From Desulfurobacteriaceae bacterium (GTDB lineage: Bacteria; Aquificota; Aquificia; Desulfurobacteriales; Desulfurobacteriaceae), in NCBI GenBank assembly GCA_027075275.1, contig JALTBO010000019.1:1-42482 (forward strand): 42,482 bases of DNA. Direction: 5' to 3'. A program made the position numbers and the translations under genes. This document shows, piece after piece, positions 1 through 29,531 of this stretch; position 1 is the first letter of the stretch, and the number at the start of each line of letters is the position of its first letter. The notes below the pieces were generated by a model that searched no databases, had not been told where the DNA came from, and worked only from the letters and a program-made list of their open reading frames with translations.

Positions 1-1330
1 AAGCATCATCGCTCCTGCTTCCGTAAGCTCCTCCAAAACAGACGTGGGAACCGGAAACCTGTTCAGGGTCGGTTGAACTGTCAGCATCAGTATCACATAG
101 GCCTTTAGCGTAACTATCTCCATTAGAGGGAGCGTTTACATAGGTCTGCTCTGCCCATACATCACCCTGAGTATACCCGCTGTTTAACCCTTCTACAGGA
201 GAAACTGTTTTTGAATCAACAACGACGTAGTAATCGTCGGTATTAAGGTTAGCAAAGTAGTAGTAACCGTTGCTGTCAGTTGTTGTTTCAGCCTTTAAAT
301 CTCCTCCCTTTGAAAACAGTCTTACCTTAACACCTTCAACAGGCTTTTTATCGTCCATATTTCCGTCACCGTTGGGATCCTCATAAACGTGACCTGCAAA
401 CCCTGTAACCTTTAAATCATAGATGGCAAGAGCAGACACAATAACAAGATCCTGTCCCGTAGAGAAAGCCCAGTTGAGTGAAGTATCTCCAGGATTAACG
501 TACTGAGAAGCATCAACAGAGTCTATATCAACACCGTAGGTATCATCCTTAGGAATGGCCGTTGAATTGGAGTCAAACAGGTTCGTTCCTGCAGCATGAC
601 CGTTAATTTCAAGCTCCTCATTATTGTTAAGATCCGGGTCACCCTCCCATACAACGCTCAAAACCTTTAAACTTGGATTGTCAGCTGCAATAAACCCGGT
701 AAGATCTTTGGAAAACGAATTATTATGGACAATCTTAAACCCCTCATAAAGATGAATAAACTTCATATCCGATGAATTTGATTCTTTATAAATAACAATT
801 AAAGACCATCCACCAAGAACCGTGCAGTAGTTTTTCCAGGGACTTCCGGTATTTATCGTTAAATCTGTAAGGGTATACGTTCCAGAACCGTAAGATTTGA
901 CAAGATCTGTAACGTCTGCGTAACAGCCGTAGAAAGAAAGGCCATCAATGCCAGAGTATTCTGATAGGTGGCAGTTGGAAGAAGGAGCTGTTATCTGATT
1001 TCCGTTAAGGGTTACTGTGTCGTCTATTTTGCTATCTGAAGCTGCCCAGAAGAGGAAAGCCTTTTCAACTTGAGCACCGGTGGGGAGACTAAGCTGAGCA
1101 GTAGAAGAGTCGGTAACAGCTGTACAGTCCTCATCGTTAGATTTAGTTCTGAAAGTACCTCCTGTAGCAACAAGTTCAAAAGGTCCAGAAATACTGTATA
1201 TAGAGGTCAAATCATCTCCGTCATTATTATCACTGTCTGCCAGAGAAACAGAGGAAAAGAGGGAAAGGGAAAATAGAGTCAAAACTAAGGAAATTAACCC
1301 TATTTTAAAGAGATCTCTTATATTCAACAT
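1..1330 (-). CDS. Secreted surface protein, partial (runs off left edge), with SdrD_B-like domain (GHVYEDPNGDGNMDDKKPVEGVKVRLFSKGG...TTTDSNGYYYFANLNTDDYYVVVD)
   Basis: Missing from the ORF track because it has no stop inside the window. Reverse-strand translation from ATG at 1330 (MLNIRDLFKIGLISLVLTLFSLSLFSSVSLADSDNND...) starts with a signal peptide; the frame was checked open at the left edge (...SGSHVCFGGAYGSRSDDA). Confidence 0.85.
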   Translation of the reverse strand, partial: MLNIRDLFKIGLISLVLTLFSLSLFSSVSLADSDNNDGDDLTSIYSISGPFELVATGGTFRTKSNDEDCTAVTDSSTAQLSLPTGAQVEKAFLFWAASDSKIDDTVTLNGNQITAPSSNCHLSEYSGIDGLSFYGCYADVTDLVKSYGSGTYTLTDLTINTGSPWKNYCTVLGGWSLIVIYKESNSSDMKFIHLYEGFKIVHNNSFSKDLTGFIAADNPSLKVLSVVWEGDPDLNNNEELEINGHAAGTNLFDSNSTAIPKDDTYGVDIDSVDASQYVNPGDTSLNWAFSTGQDLVIVSALAIYDLKVTGFAGHVYEDPNGDGNMDDKKPVEGVKVRLFSKGGDLKAETTTDSNGYYYFANLNTDDYYVVVDSKTVSPVEGLNSGYTQGDVWAEQTYVNAPSNGDSYAKGLCDTDADSSTDPEQVSGSHVCFGGAYGSRSDDA

Positions 1331-1502
1331 GCGGTCTCCCCTCATTATACTTACCTTGCTTTCCAATTCTTACTGTAAATTCGTATAATTTCTCGGAATT
1401 TTTACCTTTAAAGTAGAATCTAACCTTGAAAGGTGGGATTCCTTTAAGAAGTATCTCCTTCTTTTTTCCATAATGCCACTCTTTTCCACCCGGGAAAATC
1501 AC
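1305..1502 (-). CDS. Downstream half of a small secreted protein, in frame with the preceding ORF across a TGA; could initiate at GTG 1502
   Basis: 65 aa ORF in the same frame as 1512..1706. A GAGGTG SD-like sequence overlaps the TGA. Overlaps the start of the next gene (1330). Confidence 0.55.
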   Translation of the reverse strand: MIFPGGKEWHYGKKKEILLKGIPPFKVRFYFKGKNSEKLYEFTVRIGKQGKYNEGRPHVEYKRSL

Positions 1503-1511
1503 ATGAACACC

Positions 1512-1706
1512 TCACGGTTTATAAACACTCTGAAATATCAAAGGTTCTTTCAAATCATTTACCAGAGTAATTTTCACTCTCGCTCTACCTGGGAAAGGGT
1601 ACTTAACAGAAAGACTTCTTTTTGATAAAGGAAATCCTGCTGCACTAAAACTTACAATAAGGCACAGAAAAAAGGTAAAAAGTATCTCTTTAATCTTAAT
1701 CCGCAT
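1512..1706 (-). CDS. Small secreted protein (signal peptide MRIKIKEILFTFFLCLIVSFSAAGF), ends at an in-frame TGA
   Basis: ATG at 1706 overlaps the end of the upstream 1331 aa gene (CGCTATGCGGATTAA), typical of translational coupling. Confidence 0.6.
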   Translation of the reverse strand: MRIKIKEILFTFFLCLIVSFSAAGFPLSKRSLSVKYPFPGRARVKITLVNDLKEPLIFQSVYKP

Positions 1707-4700
1707 AGCGGGTTCTCCTACTGAGAAGTCTATCCAGCTTTTTAAAGGTGTTCTCGTCAAACTTTACTCTGAACTTCATATAGAAACCTTTAGCCCAGTA
1801 GTTAGCATCTTCAAAGTCCCTATCGTAAAAACCTGAAAAGTTGTAACCTACAGAAACCCAGAAGTTCTCTATTACTCTCACTCCAACTTCCGGTCCCCAG
1901 CTCAGAAGGTAGCTGTTTGTATTAATGTTTCTCATAATCCCAGCGTGAAAGTTTACGTCAAACCTGTCGGTTAAGTCGTAAGTAACCCTTCCCCTTAAAA
2001 GGTCGGTAAATGAAGTTCCCACAGATTTAACATCTTCGTACTTCAGAGCATACTCACCCATAAAGGTGAGCCTATAGGTCGGCTGATAGTTAACGTGCGT
2101 GGAGAGAATAGCTTTCTTTGTTACTTCGTCTCTGTCTGAAAGTTTCAACCTGAGTTTCAGGAGCCAGTTGAGTTTGTCGTTCATCAAAGGTCTCCTGGCA
2201 AGACCGAAAAGGAGGTCGTGTTCTTTGTAGGAGGAGATGAAGAAACGGTCCCTTAAGAATAGGGTGTAGTCTTTACCTACCTTAAAGATACCTCCAACCC
2301 TGAGGAGATGTTCCGTCTTTACGTTGCCAAACCTTATCTCGTAGTCACCCGACAGGAGATACTTCTCATCCTGCCTGTAAATGCCCCTGAACCTTAAAGC
2401 GGTGTAGTCGGAGCTCCCCTCACCCCTGTAAGTGTGAACGTTCTCTCCACCCAGGTCAAAGGAAACCTTATCGCTGTACTTAAACGTCCTGTTCAGCCCA
2501 AGGTGGGACTGAACCCTCCAGCCAGAAGCGGAATCGTCAAGGGTGTATTTAGAATATGCCGTTGTGTTCTTATCAAGCTTTGAGTTGAGGCCGAAGGTTG
2601 TAAGGCTCTCGTCTCTGTCTTCAAGTTCTCTGTATTCCGACTGAAGGTAGGCAGTAAGATTAGGACTTAAACGGTAAGAAACTTTGCCAACGGTTCTATT
2701 AGGATAGTAGGTAGAGTTGTTTCTGCCCGAAAAGGACTGTTCGCGCCTTAAAGAGAGGGACAGTTTATCGGTTACGTTCCAGTGGAGTTCTCCAATTCCC
2801 TGAAGGTAGGAGTCGGTCCCATCAACTCTCTCCTCTTTATTCCACCTTAAACCAGCCCCAAGGGAAAGCTTATTAGTAAAAAGATACGTTCCCCTCAGAT
2901 CTGTTTCTTTCCGGTCTATATCTTCTCTGCTTTCAACAGTTCCTGAGGAAGAAAGCCTGAATTTCTTCCAATCCTTTGAAAACTGGTAACCATAAGTCCT
3001 GTAGGCCTCCTCAACCGTATCGGAAGACGGGTTCTGGAAACCGTCTGTAACCTTTTTGAAAAAGACTTTTCCTGAGATTCCCGATGAACTGTAGCTGGCC
3101 TCAACTCTGTAGGCCTTCCCCGACGTAGAAGTAAAATTCTCACTTTCAAACCCAAAAGACTTAGAATACTCACCCAAAAACTTCAGAGGACCGTTACTGT
3201 AGTAGAAATCAGTTCCAAGGAGCTCTCTATTCCTGACCGGGTGTTCCTCCCTAACAGAAAAAAGGCCAAACCTTACACCTTTTATCCACTTCTCAGCCCT
3301 TAAACCGTAGAAATACTCCTCTTTAGGAAGGGATGTTGTCTCATACCTAACAACCAAATATTCAGGGTTAAGGTTATCGTCAAACTGAGGTAACGGCTCC
3401 TTTAGAACAATAAAACCTTCTGTATAGTTAATTTCATAATCAGTAAATCTGTTTAACTCCCTTCTGCTGAGGACAACTTGAGGGTTATACCTGTCCCTTA
3501 CCTCTATCCATACCTTTTCTGAGAAGGGCTCTATGGAACCTTTTACAAAGAAGGGACCTGAAGTTCCTTTTCCTTCAAACTCCTCCCTAACAATATCTTG
3601 ATCGTTCTTAGTTATAAAACCTCTTAACCTATAATTTCTTTTCTTTTCAAGATTTAGAAAAATTCCGTTGAATGTTCTATCGTACCTGTTATAGTCAAAC
3701 TCGCTTCCGAAATCGGTTCTGAAATCACCAAAAAGTCCGTAAGAGAGACCCTTTTCTATCCTCAGGAAAAGATGCCTTCTACTCTTAGCTTCAAAATACT
3801 GTTCTGAATCGTCTCCATAAACCGGGTAAAACTCACCCTCTTCTGTAGAGGGAACGTTCTGACGGAGAAGAACGTCTTCAGGTCTTTTGGTATCGTAGCG
3901 GAGAGTAACCACGTAATCCTTTAAACTGCCTTTTGCAAAAACAGCCCCCCTACCCCTTGCGTGAGTTCCACTCCTTGAATGGTCAAAAGGCATATCCTCC
4001 AACTTTGGAGGTGAGTTATGGGTGGAGGAAACTCCCAAATCTCCTTCAAGTTCTCCAACAACTATCCAGGGTCTCTTTTCAGGATAGAACTGGAGAGTAA
4101 ACTCTCTGCTGATTTCACCGTAAGTTACGGTAATTTTCCTTTCCTCAAGGCTCTTTGCCGGAGAAAGTTTCAAAACTGCCCGGCCGTTAATTAGCTGAAC
4201 TCGCAAAGGATGGTCCTGAAACTTTTCAAATCTTCCCGTTGAGTAGTCAAAAACGTCACCTTTATCAACCGTTACGGTAATGTAACTGTTCTCCTTTGCA
4301 GGATTCCCATCTTTATCGTAAGCTTCTACAACGACGTAAGCATAACTTCTGCCATCTGCAACCGGTTTTTCTGGAAAAACTTTGAATTTAAAATCTGAAA
4401 TATCGGAAGAAACTATAATTTTTTTCTTATCAACGATTTTCCCATCAACAATTAACTCCAGCTCGTTAGACCCTTTCTTAAGAGGAACTCCGTAGTATTT
4501 GAGAAGGAGAAGCTGACGGGCTCTATCCACTCCCTTTTCAGCCCTGAATTTCCGGGGAATTCTCTTTCCGTTAAGAAGAATCTGGTATCTGCTGTTGAGA
4601 GGAACCGATACGTAAATCTCTGTAGCCGGCTGGGGAAGGACTACATCAGAGGAGGGAAAGAGGATAGATGCTCTATTAACTTTCTTTTCACTGTTACTTT

Positions 4701-5694: not shown

Positions 5695-8600
5695 TTAATC
5701 CTTAAAGTCAATTTTTACTTTTCTGGTATCAATTAAAAGTTCTCTCAAATAGTGCTCTACTGCTTTAGCACGCTTTAAAGAAAGCTGTCTGTTATTTCGG
5801 TAACGTCTGTTAGCCTTACTTACCCCAACACTATCAGTATGACCCACAATCTTTACGAAAACCTGCTTATAGTCGTTCTTCCTGAGGAAATCGGCAAGCG
5901 CCTGCAGAGACTTTTTCGCATCAGCAGAGAGCTCGTAACTTCCAAAATCAAAGTAAACTGTTATTACATAAGTTTTTGGAGATTTAACGGAGAAGATAAC
6001 AGGAATAGAAGCGGAAACCTCCTTAGAAGTTCCTTCATAAGGTTTCAGACTGTAGTAAACAACCGATTTAACCCCAACATCTTTAGAAACAGGTTTTGAA
6101 AGCCAGGTAAGGCAAACCGACTCGCCCGGTTCAACAATAGGCAGACTCCAGCTAAAGGAGCTCCCGCTTACTTCCGGATTTTTAAAGGGAGCTCCATTCA
6201 GCTTAACAGTTCCTTCTTCCGGAACAAAGGGAGAAGACTCTACAAACCTTACCTCATATAGAGGAGATTTAACTCCGTTCTTTAAACAGAAACAGTGCTT
6301 CAACATCAGAGTTTGATCTCTGGGATCAACTAGAACAGCAGCTATCCCCCTCTTTGCTTCAAGATTACCTGAAGAAACTTTTTCAGTTTCAACAGAGGAC
6401 TTTAATTTTGCAGGAAGAGGTATAAGTCTGAAGTTGGCCTTAAAGAGTTCCCCCGGGAAAAGATCAACAAACAGAGAACCTGGGTCTCCGGCGTTCCTGT
6501 TACCGGTGACCGCTAAAACTGTGTTGGCAGGAATGGTAGTTCTATCAACCTTTAGAACGTGGGTCCCCGGTCTAACATTATCAAAATGGTATTTCCCTTC
6601 AGAATCCGTAACTACAAACCGCCCATCTTCCATATAGATCTTTACGCCACCAACTCCCGGCTCTCCATTATCCAGAACTCCATTTCTGTTGTTATCAAGA
6701 AAAACCCTGCCCAATATGTAACCTTTACTTGTAAAAACACCGGGAATAACTCTGACATAGGCATAAGCTTCATTTGAAGAAATCGGAACTTCCCCTTTTG
6801 GGTCTATCCAGCCGGAGGCTCTGGCCCTATTCTTTTGCTGTCCCTCCTTCGCCCCCGGCGTAACATACGTGTAGAAAGTTATCTCTTTTGTATCACCAGC
6901 AGTTAACTTCCCAAGATTCCAGACAAGCAGAGAGCCGGAGGAGGAAACAGAAGGGTCTTTAGACCTGTTCTCATTAACTTCTGTCGTTCCACCTTTATAT
7001 CTGAAACCGCGAGGTAGAAAGTCATAAACTTTTACACCAAACAGATCAAAGTTGTTAGGGTTCTTTACCTCTATAGTCCACTTCACAAGCTCCCCGTAGT
7101 AAACAGTAAAAGAAGAGACAGACTTCCTAACTTCTATCTGTCTAAGCCCTTTAGGAACAAGAGGTATCCTCAGTGCAACAGCTCCGGGAAAGGAGTAGTC
7201 TACGTAGAACTTTTCTCCCGTATAGGGCTTTCCACTGTAAGGAGACCAGACTAAAGAATTTTTAAGGTTGACAGGAGTGTACTTATCTTTCAAATCTTTA
7301 TCGGCAGCAGGATAGTTGCAGCTGTAATCAACAGTTATAAAGTACCATCCAACATCTAAATCTGTAAAATTCGCTATCTGAAAAACAAAAGCTCCATCGT
7401 CAAGCCCTACCGGTTTTCCGTTAACATCCGTAGGTCCAGAAACCTGTGGATTCTCCTGCCTTGTTGTCCCATCTGGATAAAAGTCAAGCTTTGCAGGGTC
7501 TACAGGAACATAAGAGGAACAGGAACCATCGGAACATCTGTAGAAGTGAACACACGCCCCATTTATCTTTTTCCCTGTAATGGCATCATAGACGTACCCT
7601 GCAGGATCTATTGGAAGCCGTAAAATCCTTGCTCCACTACTGTTTACAGTAACTTTTATAACTGCAGCTCTATCTGAACAGCTCACTCTTTTCATCTGCC
7701 AGTTCCAGCAAGCAGAATCTCCCGGTTTACCAACAGAATTCAGAAAATCCTTTCTGAACGGTGGAGACAGAAAGTAAAGGAAACCGTTCTTTTCCTTTTT
7801 TACAGTCAACCTGTAGATATAACCGTCTCTCATCCAGGAGTAGAGAGAATTGGGAACTCCTGAACTATCAAGGGAAACACTTCCTGAACTATCAGTCATA
7901 AAGAGTTTTTTCCTTACTAACTTTCCATCAGGAGTATACTCATAAGCCACAACCTGCTGGTTCCCTGCAACCTGCTCAGACAAACCGCCAACAGAAATAA
8001 CTTTTGTTTTCACAATAACTTTAGTTTTTTCAACACTTTCAGCCTTATCATACGTGTAGTCGTAAACACCTGGATTGAGAGAAGAAATCCCCTTAATAGC
8101 TACTAAAAAGGAATTTTTGTCGTAATCGGAAGGAATAAAAACTTTTGTATAGAAAATTTTTCTTCCTCCCGGTGGAATCTGACCAACATCTGGAAGTCCA
8201 TCTCCGTCGGAATCCGTCAAAACCCGACCTTCAGAATCGTAGAACTTAACGGTAAGTCCAGAAAGGTTTTGAGAAAGAGAAGTATCAATCGTTAAATTAA
8301 CAACATCAGGTCTATTCCCCAAATTCCACACTTCATTTTCAAACACCACCCAATCACCAGTGGAAATACCCTTAATCAGCATTAAATCATCTGGATCGTC
8401 TGGCTTACCGCTTCCCGAGTAACTGGTAGCATCATCGGTATCGTCAACAATAATCCTAACAAGAGGTTCCACATTAACAACAGCGGTATTAGACTCAACA
8501 ATTTCTCTCTTTCCTCCAGAAGTATAAACACCATAAACTCTGTTTTTTAAAACAGTTCCACCAAAAGAAGGACTTAAATAACCCTCAACGGTAAACGTTC

Positions 8601-25474: not shown

Positions 25475-26143
25475 ATGAGGGGGCTTAAAATGGAAAAAGT
25501 GATAACAATTAGTATTTGTCAACAGGACAATTCTCTCAAAAGTGTTATATCACAGATAACCAGAATAGAAGACTACAGGATACAGCTCAGGTACTTCCAC
25601 CTGAGTAGCAGGTTAAGTGAAGACCCCATAACCGACATCTATGCTGTAAGTAACCCTCTCTTTCACTCCATAATTATGGATGAGATTAAAGAAAAGCCTA
25701 TACTAATTGTGGAAGATGGAGAAAACAGCTTCCAGACTGGAAGCGAAAACATTTTTACAATCTGTAAAAATCAGAAATCTATTGAATCTTTCCTGAAGGC
25801 ACTGGTCAGAAGTTTTAAAAGTATTAAACTCCTGCTTTCAGACGACAGAACAGTCAAGCTCACCTTTACGCTACCTGAATCCAAGCTGGAAATTATTCAG
25901 GGAAATAGAGTAAAGGGAAGGGAGTATCTCTCTTACAGGGGGGCTCTGGTATTGAAGGAACTTTTCAGTAAACCGGAAAGAGTAGTTGAGTTTAAAGAGT
26001 TTATTAACTTAGGAATAAAAGAAGAAAGCCTGCCGGTTTATATTTCAACCCTTAGAAAGACGTTAAAGAAAATTGCTCCTGAGCTTGAGATTAAAAGTCA
26101 CAGGTCAAAAGGATACTCATTAAGGTTTATAAACAATGGTTGA
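25475..26143 (+). CDS. Putative transcriptional regulator with C-terminal OmpR-type winged helix
   Basis: 222 aa. C-terminal LSYRGALVLKELFSKPERVVEFKEFI...PVYISTLRKTLKKIAPELEIKSHRSKGYSLRF resembles the trans_reg_C fold. Confidence 0.6.
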   Translation: MRGLKMEKVITISICQQDNSLKSVISQITRIEDYRIQLRYFHLSSRLSEDPITDIYAVSNPLFHSIIMDEIKEKPILIVEDGENSFQTGSENIFTICKNQKSIESFLKALVRSFKSIKLLLSDDRTVKLTFTLPESKLEIIQGNRVKGREYLSYRGALVLKELFSKPERVVEFKEFINLGIKEESLPVYISTLRKTLKKIAPELEIKSHRSKGYSLRFINNG

Positions 26144-26617
26144 TATGGCATGCTTGTAGGCCAGTATGTTTCCCCTGTAGTTTTTTAACTTCAGACAGAA
26201 ACGGTCAAACCCTTTTAGTTTTCCCTCTACTTTGCTTCCGTTTCTGAAGTAGACCGTTACCCTTTTTCCCAGGGCGGAACGGAGCTCCCTGCTCTGAACT
26301 CCTCCCATAGTTGAACAGGCGATCACTTTGTATCCCTGTTTAACCTTTTCTTCAACCTCCCTCTGCTGCTCCTCTGTAAGAACAGGTGGAGGTAGAGAAA
26401 CCATCATACTGGCAGGCCGAACGATAATTTCATCTCCAACTTCTTCGTAAACAACGTCTCCTGAAGACTTCAGGAGTTGAAGAAGCGGTTTAATCTGTTC
26501 CGATTTAACAGAGAGCTCCTCGGCAAGCTCATCAACGCTTCCCCTGAACTCTCCCTGCTCCTCAAGGAGCTCAATTAACGCCATCTGGGCTTCTTCTAAA
26601 GTCCTGTACCTTTTCAT
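26120..26617 (-). CDS. Winged-helix + Hfq/Sm-like fusion protein (second of pair)
   Basis: 165 aa. Helical wHTH-like N-terminus; C-terminal ALGKRVTVYFRNGSKVEGKLKGFDRFCLKLKNYRGNILAYKHAISTIVYKP matches the Hfq Sm1/Sm2 pattern (FDxF...YKHAIST). Confidence 0.8.
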   Translation of the reverse strand: MKRYRTLEEAQMALIELLEEQGEFRGSVDELAEELSVKSEQIKPLLQLLKSSGDVVYEEVGDEIIVRPASMMVSLPPPVLTEEQQREVEEKVKQGYKVIACSTMGGVQSRELRSALGKRVTVYFRNGSKVEGKLKGFDRFCLKLKNYRGNILAYKHAISTIVYKP

Positions 26618-27123
26618 TTCTGTTCCACATCAAAGAGAATTGTGGCAACGGCGTGCTTGTAAACCAGAGACTTCCCCTTAGGAGCTGTCATGGCAAGGGT
26701 AAAGTTATCAAAGTCTAAAAGTTTACCCTCAAGCCTGGTTCCGCTAATAAGGAAAACTGTAACATCCTTTCCCAGAAGGGAGGTTAAAACTGTATCCTGC
26801 AGAGACTTCTTTTTCTCCTTTTTCTCTCTTTTCTCCTCGCTTTTTTGGGTCTCTTTCTCCTCCCCCATTTTTACCTCCTCAGCAGAAGCCTCCTCTTTTC
26901 TCGGCTTATTCTCTAAAAGCTTTATAAGGAGGCCTTTTCCCCTCTTTGTTTCAGATTTCAGGAAACCTTCTTCTTCAAGCTCCTTAAGAACCTTCTTTAT
27001 AAGATAAGGTGAAGCTCCGGTTAAACCGGAGAGTTCTTCCAACGTTCCGTTATACTCTCCAAATTCAGAAAGGTATTCCTTTAACCAGATTTTAACTTTT
27101 TCAGACTTTGATTGAGAAGACAT
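26614..27123 (-). CDS. Winged-helix + Hfq/Sm-like fusion protein (first of pair)
   Basis: 169 aa. wHTH-like N-terminus, charged linker, then SLQDTVLTSLLGKDVTVFLISGTRLEGKLLDFDNFTLAMTAPKGKSLVYKHAVATILFD, which matches Hfq. ATGA overlap with the next gene. Confidence 0.85.
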   Translation of the reverse strand: MSSQSKSEKVKIWLKEYLSEFGEYNGTLEELSGLTGASPYLIKKVLKELEEEGFLKSETKRGKGLLIKLLENKPRKEEASAEEVKMGEEKETQKSEEKREKKEKKKSLQDTVLTSLLGKDVTVFLISGTRLEGKLLDFDNFTLAMTAPKGKSLVYKHAVATILFDVEQK

Positions 27124-27153
27124 ATTTCCTCCGGAATCTGTTTTAAAAAAGAT

Positions 27154-28503
27154 TCACTGTTCCAAACCGGGTAGTATCTCCTCCTCAAGGGTTCTGGTAT
27201 TAAACCTCCCTTTCCTAAACTGCTCAGTTTCCAAAAGCTTAAGGTGGAAAGGAATAGTTGTCTTCAGAGCTCCGTTAATTACAAACTCTGAGAGAGCTCT
27301 CTTTCCTCTCTCTATAGCCTCCTCCCTCGTCTCTCCCCAGACAATAAGTTTGCCAAGGAGAGAGTCGTAGTAAACAGGAACTGAGTAACCCTCATAAATG
27401 TAGGTATCTACTCTTACTCCAAAACCGCCTGGCAGAAGGAGTTTCTCTATCTTCCCTGGAACAGGTCTAAAGTTCTCTGTGTAGTCTTCACAAGTTATTC
27501 TAAATTCTATGGCGTGACCGTTCAGTTTTACTTGACCTAAGTCAAGTCTATCTCCAGCAGCAGACCTTAACTGGAGAGATATAAGGTCTTTTCCTGTAAC
27601 CATTTCTGTAACCGGGTGCTCTACCTGAATACGGGTGTTCATTTCTATAAAGTAGAAATTCTTATCCTTGTCTACAAGGAACTCTACTGTTCCAGCACCT
27701 TCATAGTTTATATATTCGGCCAACTTTTTCGCAGCTTTAGAGAGCTCTCTTCTCAGTTTTTCGTCAACAAAAGGGGACGGAGCTTCTTCAACAACCTTCT
27801 GGTGTCTCCTCTGAAGGGAACACTCCCTTTCTCCAAAGGTGTAAACGTTGCCGTGGCCGTCGGCAATCACCTGTATCTCTATATGGCGGGGTTCCTCTAT
27901 GAACTTCTCTACGTAAACCTCTCCGTTTCCGAAGGCCGCCTCAGCCTCAGCCATTGCGGTGGCTATGAGGGTTTCCGCATCCTCAATCGATGTAATAAGC
28001 CTCATACCCCTTCCGCCACCTCCGTGGGCAGCCTTCACAAGAACCGGAGGTCCTATCCTTTCAACTTCTTTCAGCGCCTCCTGGACGCTACGGCAGACTC
28101 CGCTTCCCGGAACAACAGGAACACCGGCTTCCTGAGCCACTTTCCTCGCTTTTGCCTTGTCTCCCATTAAGATCATCGTTTCAGGAGAAGGGCCTATGAA
28201 CTTGATTCCGCAGGCGTTACATATCTCTGCAAATCCCGGGTTTTCTGAGAGGAAACCGTAACCGGGGTGAATGGCATCGGCGCCGGAGAGCTCAGCAGCT
28301 GCAATTATTGCCGGTATGTTCAGGTAGCTTTGTTGCGGCTGAGGCCCACCTATACAGACAGACTCGTCTGCAAGGTAGACGTGGAGAGATTCCCTGTCTG
28401 CCGTTGAGTAAACGGCAACTGTCTTAATACCTAATTCCCTGCAGCTCCTTATTATCCTTACTGCTATTTCACCTCTGTTGGCAATAAGAACTTTCCTGAA
28501 CAT
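27154..28503 (-). CDS. accC: Biotin carboxylase (acetyl-CoA carboxylase subunit)
   Basis: [62 protein letters not shown]. Confidence 0.96.
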
Positions 28504-28511
28504 CCACAATC

Positions 28512-28949
28512 CTATTTAGGTTCTATGTAGAAGAGCGGCTGGCCAAATTCAACCGGCTGGCCGTTTTCAACCAGAATTTTCCTGACAATTCCAGATACTT
28601 CCGACTCTATCTCATTCATCACTTTGAGGGCCTCAATTATACACAGGGTTTGCCCTTTTTCAACGTAGTCTCCCTCTTTTACAAAAGGCTCCGCACCGGG
28701 AGCTGGAGCCCTGTAGAAAGTTCCAACCATGGGAGACTCTACAACGTAGTAGTTCTCCTCAGGCTGAACCTCTCTCTCAGCAGGGGAGGGTTCTTGGGTT
28801 AAAGGGAGTTCTGAAGGGGCCGTAACTGCCCCTCCTTCTCGCTTGAACTTCACTTTTATTTTGAGCCCCTCAGCTTCTACTTCAAGCTCCTCTACAGAGG
28901 AGTTTTCAAGGCTTTTAAGGAGCTCCCTCACCTTTTCAATATCGGCCAA
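28512..28949 (-). CDS. accB: Biotin carboxyl carrier protein
   Basis: 145 aa. Biotinylation site [10 protein letters not shown](E)[23 protein letters not shown]. Confidence 0.96.
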
Positions 28950-28958
28950 CGGTTCCTC

Positions 28959-29531
28959 CTACTTAACGTTTACCCTTTCTATGTACTCTCCAGTTTCAGG
29001 GTTAACCCTTACCATATCTCCAACGTTAATAAACATGGGGACCTGAACAACTGCTCCGGTTTCAAGTGTTGCAGGCTTGGTAACGTTGGAAACTGTATCC
29101 CCCTTAAAGCCAGGCTCTGTATCTACAACCTGAAGAACTATGCTCTTTGGAAGTTTAACTGAGATTGCTTCACCTTTGTAGAACTGAACCATTACAGATG
29201 TGTTCTCTTTTAAAAACTTTGCCCTTTCACCAAGGGCTGCAGCAGGAATTCCTACCTGTTCGTAAGTTCTTGAGTCCATGAAATAGTAGTAGTCTCCGTC
29301 GTTGTAGATGTATTCCATCTCCCTCTCTTCAAAATCGGCAAGCTCTAACTTCTCACCAACTTTGTAGGTTTTCTCAACAACGTTTCCGGTTTTCAGGTTT
29401 TTCAGCTTTATCCTTGCAAAGGCCTGTCCCTTTCCCGGTTTAACGTGCTGGTAGTCTATGATTTCGTAGGGAGTTCCGTCTATCTCCAGCTTCATTCCTT
29501 TTGCGATTTGGTTTACATCAATAGAAGCCAC
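28959..29531 (-). CDS. efp: Translation elongation factor P
   Basis: 190 aa. GMKLEIDGTPYEIIDYQHVKPGKGQAFARIKLKNLKTGNVVEKTY. Confidence 0.98.
   Translation of the reverse strand: MASIDVNQIAKGMKLEIDGTPYEIIDYQHVKPGKGQAFARIKLKNLKTGNVVEKTYKVGEKLELADFEEREMEYIYNDGDYYYFMDSRTYEQVGIPAAALGERAKFLKENTSVMVQFYKGEAISVKLPKSIVLQVVDTEPGFKGDTVSNVTKPATLETGAVVQVPMFINVGDMVRVNPETGEYIERVNVK

Follow-up and report, generated by a model that had tools for sequence, protein, structure and literature searches.

Hfq normally occurs as a small protein on its own, with a disordered tail as its only appendage. In Escherichia coli Hfq, the acidic C-terminal tip shields the basic surface of the Sm domain (PMC5606850). The transcription factor PafBC is a heterodimer of operon-encoded paralogues that carry winged helices and WYL domains with an Hfq-like Sm fold (PMC6789036). 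A search of the open-access literature found no winged-helix/Hfq fusion, either as a named Hfq family or otherwise, and no paper that paired Hfq with Thermovibrio or Desulfurobacterium. The tandem pair of winged-helix–Hfq fusions reported here, HfqA and HfqB, is apparently undescribed.

The pair is encoded in a genome of the Desulfurobacteriaceae, a family of heat-loving deep-sea bacteria. The window, that is, the whole stretch of DNA that was analysed, comprised 42,482 nt from a Desulfurobacteriaceae bacterium (GCA_027075275.1, contig JALTBO010000019.1, positions 1–42,482 of the forward strand).

The pair resembles canonical Hfq (PF17209; the miaA-side copy of the same genome; Aquifex aeolicus Hfq, PMC5379935) in having an Sm domain with an N-terminal helix, the proximal Gln, an aromatic residue, YKHA and the TI strand. 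It differs in the added N-terminal winged helix, in being two tandem paralogues, in lacking the RRER/RKxR rim, where two residues are deleted, in the change of distal Gln33 to Glu, and in scoring under the NCBI equivalog cut-off. With PafBC and the wHTH-WYL factors (PMC6789036, PMC4012209) it shares an N-terminal winged helix, an Sm-type barrel resembling Hfq, adjacent paralogues and asymmetric partners; in contrast to these, its Sm domain is Hfq by sequence, a WCX domain is missing and the linker of HfqA is long and disordered. As in E. coli Hfq (PMC5606850), the basic Sm surface of HfqB could be shielded by an acidic segment of its own chain; unlike the E. coli tip, this segment is a folded winged helix at the N-terminus, and only one of the paralogues has it.

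The hfqA–hfqB gene pair

An earlier note on this DNA had described two adjacent genes overlapping by ATGA, each encoding an N-terminal winged helix joined to an Hfq/Sm domain. The overlap was confirmed by the ORF coordinates and the quoted sequences, and AlphaFold2 and the Pfam Hfq matches agreed on the architecture. The features of the pair were as follows.

26614..27123, minus strand: hfqA, 169 aa; winged helix, disordered K/E-rich linker and Hfq Sm domain (ORF, Pfam Hfq, orthologues)
26120..26617, minus strand: hfqB, 165 aa; acidic winged helix, helix/strand segment and hyperbasic Hfq Sm domain (ORF, Pfam Hfq, orthologues)
26614..26617, minus strand: 4-nt ATGA overlap of the hfqA stop and the hfqB start (sequence)
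27128..27132, minus strand: GGAGG Shine-Dalgarno of hfqA (sequence; GGAG(G) also 5' of hfqA in relatives)

In relatives, the spacing between the two genes ranged from -4 to +15 nt. HfqA and HfqB are paralogues with a common origin in the duplication of one winged-helix–Sm fusion, and they aligned end to end (hhalign 99.5%, 151 columns). When compared with the nearest relatives, dN was 0.02–0.21 for the winged helices and 0.007–0.07 for the Sm domains, with dS from about 1 to saturation; the linker of HfqA was loosely constrained (dN 0.14–0.56). Both proteins are under strong purifying selection, and chance ORFs or pseudogenes were therefore ruled out, on the strength of the orthologues and the dN/dS comparison.

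Convergent with hfqB, and overlapping its 3' end by 24 nt, was a gene whose fast-evolving product carries a PhoB-type domain at its C-terminus (25475–26143, plus strand; PF00486, E=9.6e-5, slightly under the family cut-off). Some relatives had a gene of this type next to the pair and others lacked it. No Rfam match was obtained near the hfqA–hfqB locus.

N-terminal winged helices

The N-terminal domains were delimited as follows.

26917..27108, minus strand: HfqA winged helix, residues 6–69 (AlphaFold2 pLDDT 72–92, Foldseek, charge and wing table)
26414..26599, minus strand: HfqB winged helix, residues 7–68 (AlphaFold2, charges)

AlphaFold2 models were built with five sequences, which for HfqA were the only close ones usable. 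The predicted topology was the same in HfqA (H6–21, E23–26, H28–35, H39–51, E55–60, E64–69; pLDDT 72–92) and HfqB (H7–21, E24–26, H28–35, H39–51, E55–60, E63–68; pLDDT mostly 77–89), and the models support a winged-helix fold well in both. For the best orthologue of each, weak HMM matches to Pfam were obtained: GntR (1.1e-5) and Rrf2 (7.5e-5) for HfqA, HVO_A0114 (5.8e-4) and PafC-HTH (4.7e-3) for HfqB. Foldseek matched the HfqA model to RbkR, CodY, MarR and Zalpha, all weakly (best E 4.7e-3), and against viral models it returned generic winged-helix matches only.

The winged helix of HfqA was near-neutral overall (net -2 to +3), with a wing of the form (K/R)RG(K/R)GL in 21/21 orthologues and a KKGKG counterpart in the sister family described below. 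The winged helix of HfqB was acidic, its wing region included, with a net charge of -5 to -9 in all 20 orthologues (mean -7.3). The N-terminal domains had been said to resemble DNA-binding modules. AlphaFold2 and the HMM matches uphold this for the fold; since the HfqB domain is acidic, the likeness does not extend to its charge. The suggestion of DNA-binding arms on both subunits fits the conserved basic wing of HfqA and sits poorly with the acidic arm of HfqB, which makes it doubtful that the two arms are equal.

Linkers and Sm domains

The remainder of each protein was divided as follows.

26806..26910, minus strand: HfqA linker, residues 72–106, charged and of variable length (pLDDT <50, predicted disordered; length variation; dN)
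26635..26805, minus strand: HfqA Sm domain, residues 107–163 (Pfam and alignments)
26303..26374, minus strand: HfqB connecting segment, helix 82–93 and strand 97–100, leading into a conserved GGVQSR (AlphaFold2, alignment)
26129..26299, minus strand: HfqB Sm domain, residues 107–163, a helix and five strands (AlphaFold2, Foldseek, charges)

The Pfam Hfq profile PF17209 (cut-off 27 bits) matched both HfqA (E=3.4e-14, 52.6 bits) and HfqB (E=5.7e-13, 48.7 bits), and an Hfq match was present in 21/21 HfqA and 20/20 HfqB orthologues. Pfam LSM also matched both C-termini, less strongly than Hfq. Against the NCBIfam equivalog TIGR02383 'RNA chaperone Hfq' (cut-off 61.7 bits), HfqA and HfqB scored 52.6 and 47.6 bits, compared with 97.6 for the canonical Hfq of the same genome. 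In sequence searches of the PDB, the C-terminal part of each protein matched Hfq structures. The Sm domain of HfqB was modelled well (helix 109–115 and five strands) and its monomer fitted Hfq protomers in crystal structures (Foldseek, 3rer, E=2.4e-5, TM (target) 0.81). The Sm fold of HfqA was modelled poorly from a shallow alignment; because only five close sequences were available, confidence was low outside the winged helix, and the assignment of this domain consequently rests on the HMM and sequence match.

The Sm core of HfqA was nearly invariant across the Desulfurobacteriaceae, with Q109, D110, N140, F141, K156 and H157 invariant. The residues corresponding to the proximal site of E. 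coli Hfq (Gln8, Phe42, Lys56, His57) were present as Q109/F141/K156/H157 in HfqA and Q108/F-or-Y140/K155/H156 in HfqB; the equivalent of E. coli Gln41 was Asn in HfqA and Arg in HfqB. As had been claimed, both copies in the window retained YKHA and the N-terminal Gln, and the alignment showed this Gln, the Lys and the His to be invariant across all orthologues. In both proteins, the edge strands of the Sm domain were intact around YKHA and TI. The distal-face residues differed between HfqA and HfqB, again as the earlier note had it, except at the Gln33 position, which was Glu in both.

The basic rim had been reported missing. An RRER-like patch was indeed absent from both proteins, the aligned positions being Leu, Gly and a two-residue gap, but a lack of basic character did not hold for HfqB, whose Sm domain was hyperbasic (net +10 to +12 in 20/20 orthologues, mean +10.6) with invariant R110, R113 and K118. 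The Sm domain of HfqA was near neutral. Because an acidic winged helix is combined with a hyperbasic Sm domain in all 20 HfqB orthologues, self-shielding by the acidic arm appears likelier than DNA binding.

In a tree of the Sm domains (~70 columns), HfqA and HfqB grouped together (100/99), apart from the canonical Hfqs and from the short second Hfqs of other Aquificota. Derivation of the Sm domain from such a short second Hfq was considered and set aside, as the tree did not point to any one donor.

Canonical Hfq and distribution of the pair

It had been proposed that the pair would be the Hfq system of the organism if no stand-alone hfq existed. This was overturned by the genome search, which located a canonical 82-aa hfq adjoining miaA (locus L001) and so ruled out the pair as the only Hfq. 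The other Desulfurobacteriaceae genomes bearing the pair also had a canonical hfq. HfqA–HfqB is therefore an extra, accessory Hfq system.

HfqA was found in 21 and HfqB in 20 of 22 Desulfurobacteriaceae genomes. The gaps in HfqB concerned G121, where the contig edge (locus L103) precedes the expected hfqB start, and G130, which is 62% complete. Upstream of the pair lay three conserved neighbours, assigned as accC and accB, which serve fatty-acid synthesis, and efp.

27154..28509, minus strand: accC (biotin carboxylase), 30 nt upstream of hfqA (neighbourhood comparison, spacing)
28512..28949, minus strand: accB (biotin carboxyl carrier), conserved neighbour
28959..29531, minus strand: efp (elongation factor P), conserved neighbour

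Among the loci compared, the order efp-accB-accC-hfqA-hfqB was kept wherever the contig was long enough, and accC was directly upstream of hfqA, 17–172 nt away, in 21/21 loci examined. A scan of the genome collection, tuned to close homologues, found relatives only in Desulfurobacteriaceae/Thermovibrio. The fusion was present in none of 112 Aquificota genomes from outside the order, nearly all of which had unfused Hfqs, mostly two.

In the loci of other Aquificota that were read (L119–L127), a short Hfq of 62–76 aa, separate from the 80-aa Aquifex-type copy, usually had an hflX-like gene for a neighbour or belonged to a locus of the miaA-hfq-hflX type. No split winged-helix gene accompanied this short Hfq in these loci, most of which showed the miaA-hfq-hflX arrangement. 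A term search through the paper on the Aquifex Hfq structure (PMC5379935) gave no mention of a paralogue. A mobile or viral origin was likewise rejected, as viral contigs held no relatives of the fusion; the plasmid and phage matches were to ordinary Hfq, covering the Sm part only, and the PHROG matches of HfqA were low-level, to winged-helix replication proteins.

A diverged pair in the sister family

Two genomes of the sister family in the same order (G113 and G114) carried a diverged A/B pair, still adjacent but in another gene context.

Locus L117, 6347-6787 then 6797-7303, plus strand: sister-family pair
Locus L118, 1732-2169 then 1232-1720, minus strand: sister-family pair
L117:6347-8447, plus strand, and L118:84-2169, minus strand: pair with RNA-ligase gene

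Profile comparison of the two families gave probabilities of 99.4% for A-to-A and 91.7% for B-to-B, and only 35.7% for B-to-A. From this correspondence, the A/B duplication is judged to be older than the family split. The spread across the Desulfurobacteriaceae, together with this diverged pair, makes HfqA–HfqB an old, co-inherited pair.

The sister winged helix A was 45–47% identical to that of Desulfurobacteriaceae HfqA. In the alignment, the sister Sm domains had lost most of the Hfq signature and RNA-binding residues, and Hfq-type RNA binding is therefore not a universal function of the pair. The charge split was also absent, with net charges of -1/+1 for the HfqB-like winged helix and 0/-3 for the Sm domain. 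At the threshold used, no Hfq-family protein was found in G113 or G114, one of which is 95% complete; loss of canonical Hfq in the sister family is probable.

The sister pair was flanked upstream by an rpe-like gene and downstream, with a 4–8 nt overlap, by a gene for a T4-type RNA ligase (PF09511, E=3.1e-26). This overlap suggests a link to RNA repair. Relatives of the ligase occurred elsewhere in many Desulfurobacteriaceae genomes, including that of the window, where the relative (46% identity; G000:C98:4639-5742, locus L132) overlaps the end of an hisA-like gene.

Possible functions of the pair

Tentatively, hfqA–hfqB may specify a dedicated, accessory assembly of the Sm/Hfq kind in which binding of single-stranded RNA is coupled to a DNA-associated output, either transcriptional or nucleoid; this is the reading that we prefer, held at rather less than even confidence. 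Hetero-oligomerisation of HfqA and HfqB is predicted, with indirect support, and the adjacency of the pair was kept although its genomic neighbours changed between the families. The Sm domains would form a ring, probably a mixed one, given that the two proteins are produced jointly and have intact edge strands. HfqA would supply a proximal U-rich RNA pocket, and its winged helices, held on long flexible linkers, would use their basic wings to touch DNA or structured nucleic acid. HfqB would supply a hyperbasic Sm surface with non-specific RNA/DNA binding, which its own acidic winged helix may restrain; this is proposed by analogy, because the acidic tip of E. coli Hfq behaves in this way (PMC5606850). 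RNA occupancy would then change where or how the arms of HfqA engage their targets.

Several observations speak against this accessory assembly. The winged-helix fold also mediates protein–protein and RNA contacts, the winged helix of HfqA is near-neutral with weak Foldseek matches that include Zalpha, and neither the charge split nor most of the Hfq RNA-binding residues are found in the sister family. A bolder form is unlikely as it stands: a mixed ring of the Hfq type, armed with winged helices, that would detect single-stranded RNA or the 3' ends of RNA and itself govern transcription or chromosome binding. The pair would then be an RNA-responsive transcription factor beside canonical Hfq, with the DNA-contacting arms on HfqA and the acidic arm of HfqB shielding the hyperbasic RNA surface.

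It is possible, if somewhat unlikely, that the pair is instead a purely post-transcriptional accessory RNA chaperone, acting in annealing, decay or repair, with winged helices that engage RNA or a protein partner (ribosome, RNase, RNA ligase) and not DNA. The overlap with the ligase gene in the sister family can be explained in this way, as can the ligase relatives in many Desulfurobacteriaceae genomes, that of the window among them, the translation factor gene efp in the neighbourhood, and an HfqB winged helix that is ill-suited to DNA. However, in the Desulfurobacteriaceae the ligase gene is not adjacent to the pair, several near-complete genomes bearing the pair lack it, and the winged helix of HfqA, with its conserved basic wing, best matches bacterial regulators (GntR, Rrf2, Crp).

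Less probable again is a heterodimeric transcription factor without a ring, in the manner of PafBC, in which the Sm domains sense a ligand (RNA, ssDNA or a small molecule) and switch the winged helices. The plan is the same, with adjacent paralogous genes, a winged helix followed by an Sm-type fold, and asymmetric partners (PMC6789036), and the sister Sm domains have drifted from the Hfq RNA residues with winged helix A still 45–47% identical. Yet the Sm domains of the Desulfurobacteriaceae are Hfq-type, with YKHA and the TI edge strands intact and that of HfqA nearly invariant, and the long, disordered linker of HfqA is unlike a compact dimer. There is no space for a WCX domain, and Pfam returned Hfq matches and no WYL match at E<=1 in either protein. 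Because WYL was not detected, the pair is analogous to PafBC but does not belong to it.

A role confined to local regulation of the efp-accB-accC operon, such as feedback on acetyl-CoA carboxylase, is very unlikely: accC does lie directly upstream in every locus examined, but the sister-family pair is placed between an rpe-like gene and the RNA-ligase gene, away from accBC, and constitutive regulators are commonly co-transcribed with house-keeping genes.

The conservation of a duplicated Hfq–winged-helix fusion beside an ordinary Hfq throughout the family suggests a second, specialised Hfq system, one that may tie the sensing of RNA to the control of genes. Among Hfq proteins it parallels the regulatory logic of PafBC-type winged-helix/Sm-fold proteins, and with it one can ask directly whether Sm rings can be targeted to DNA. 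In the sister family the pair is kept but the Hfq signature is gone, and this gradient of divergence shows how Sm domains can move away from canonical RNA chaperoning.
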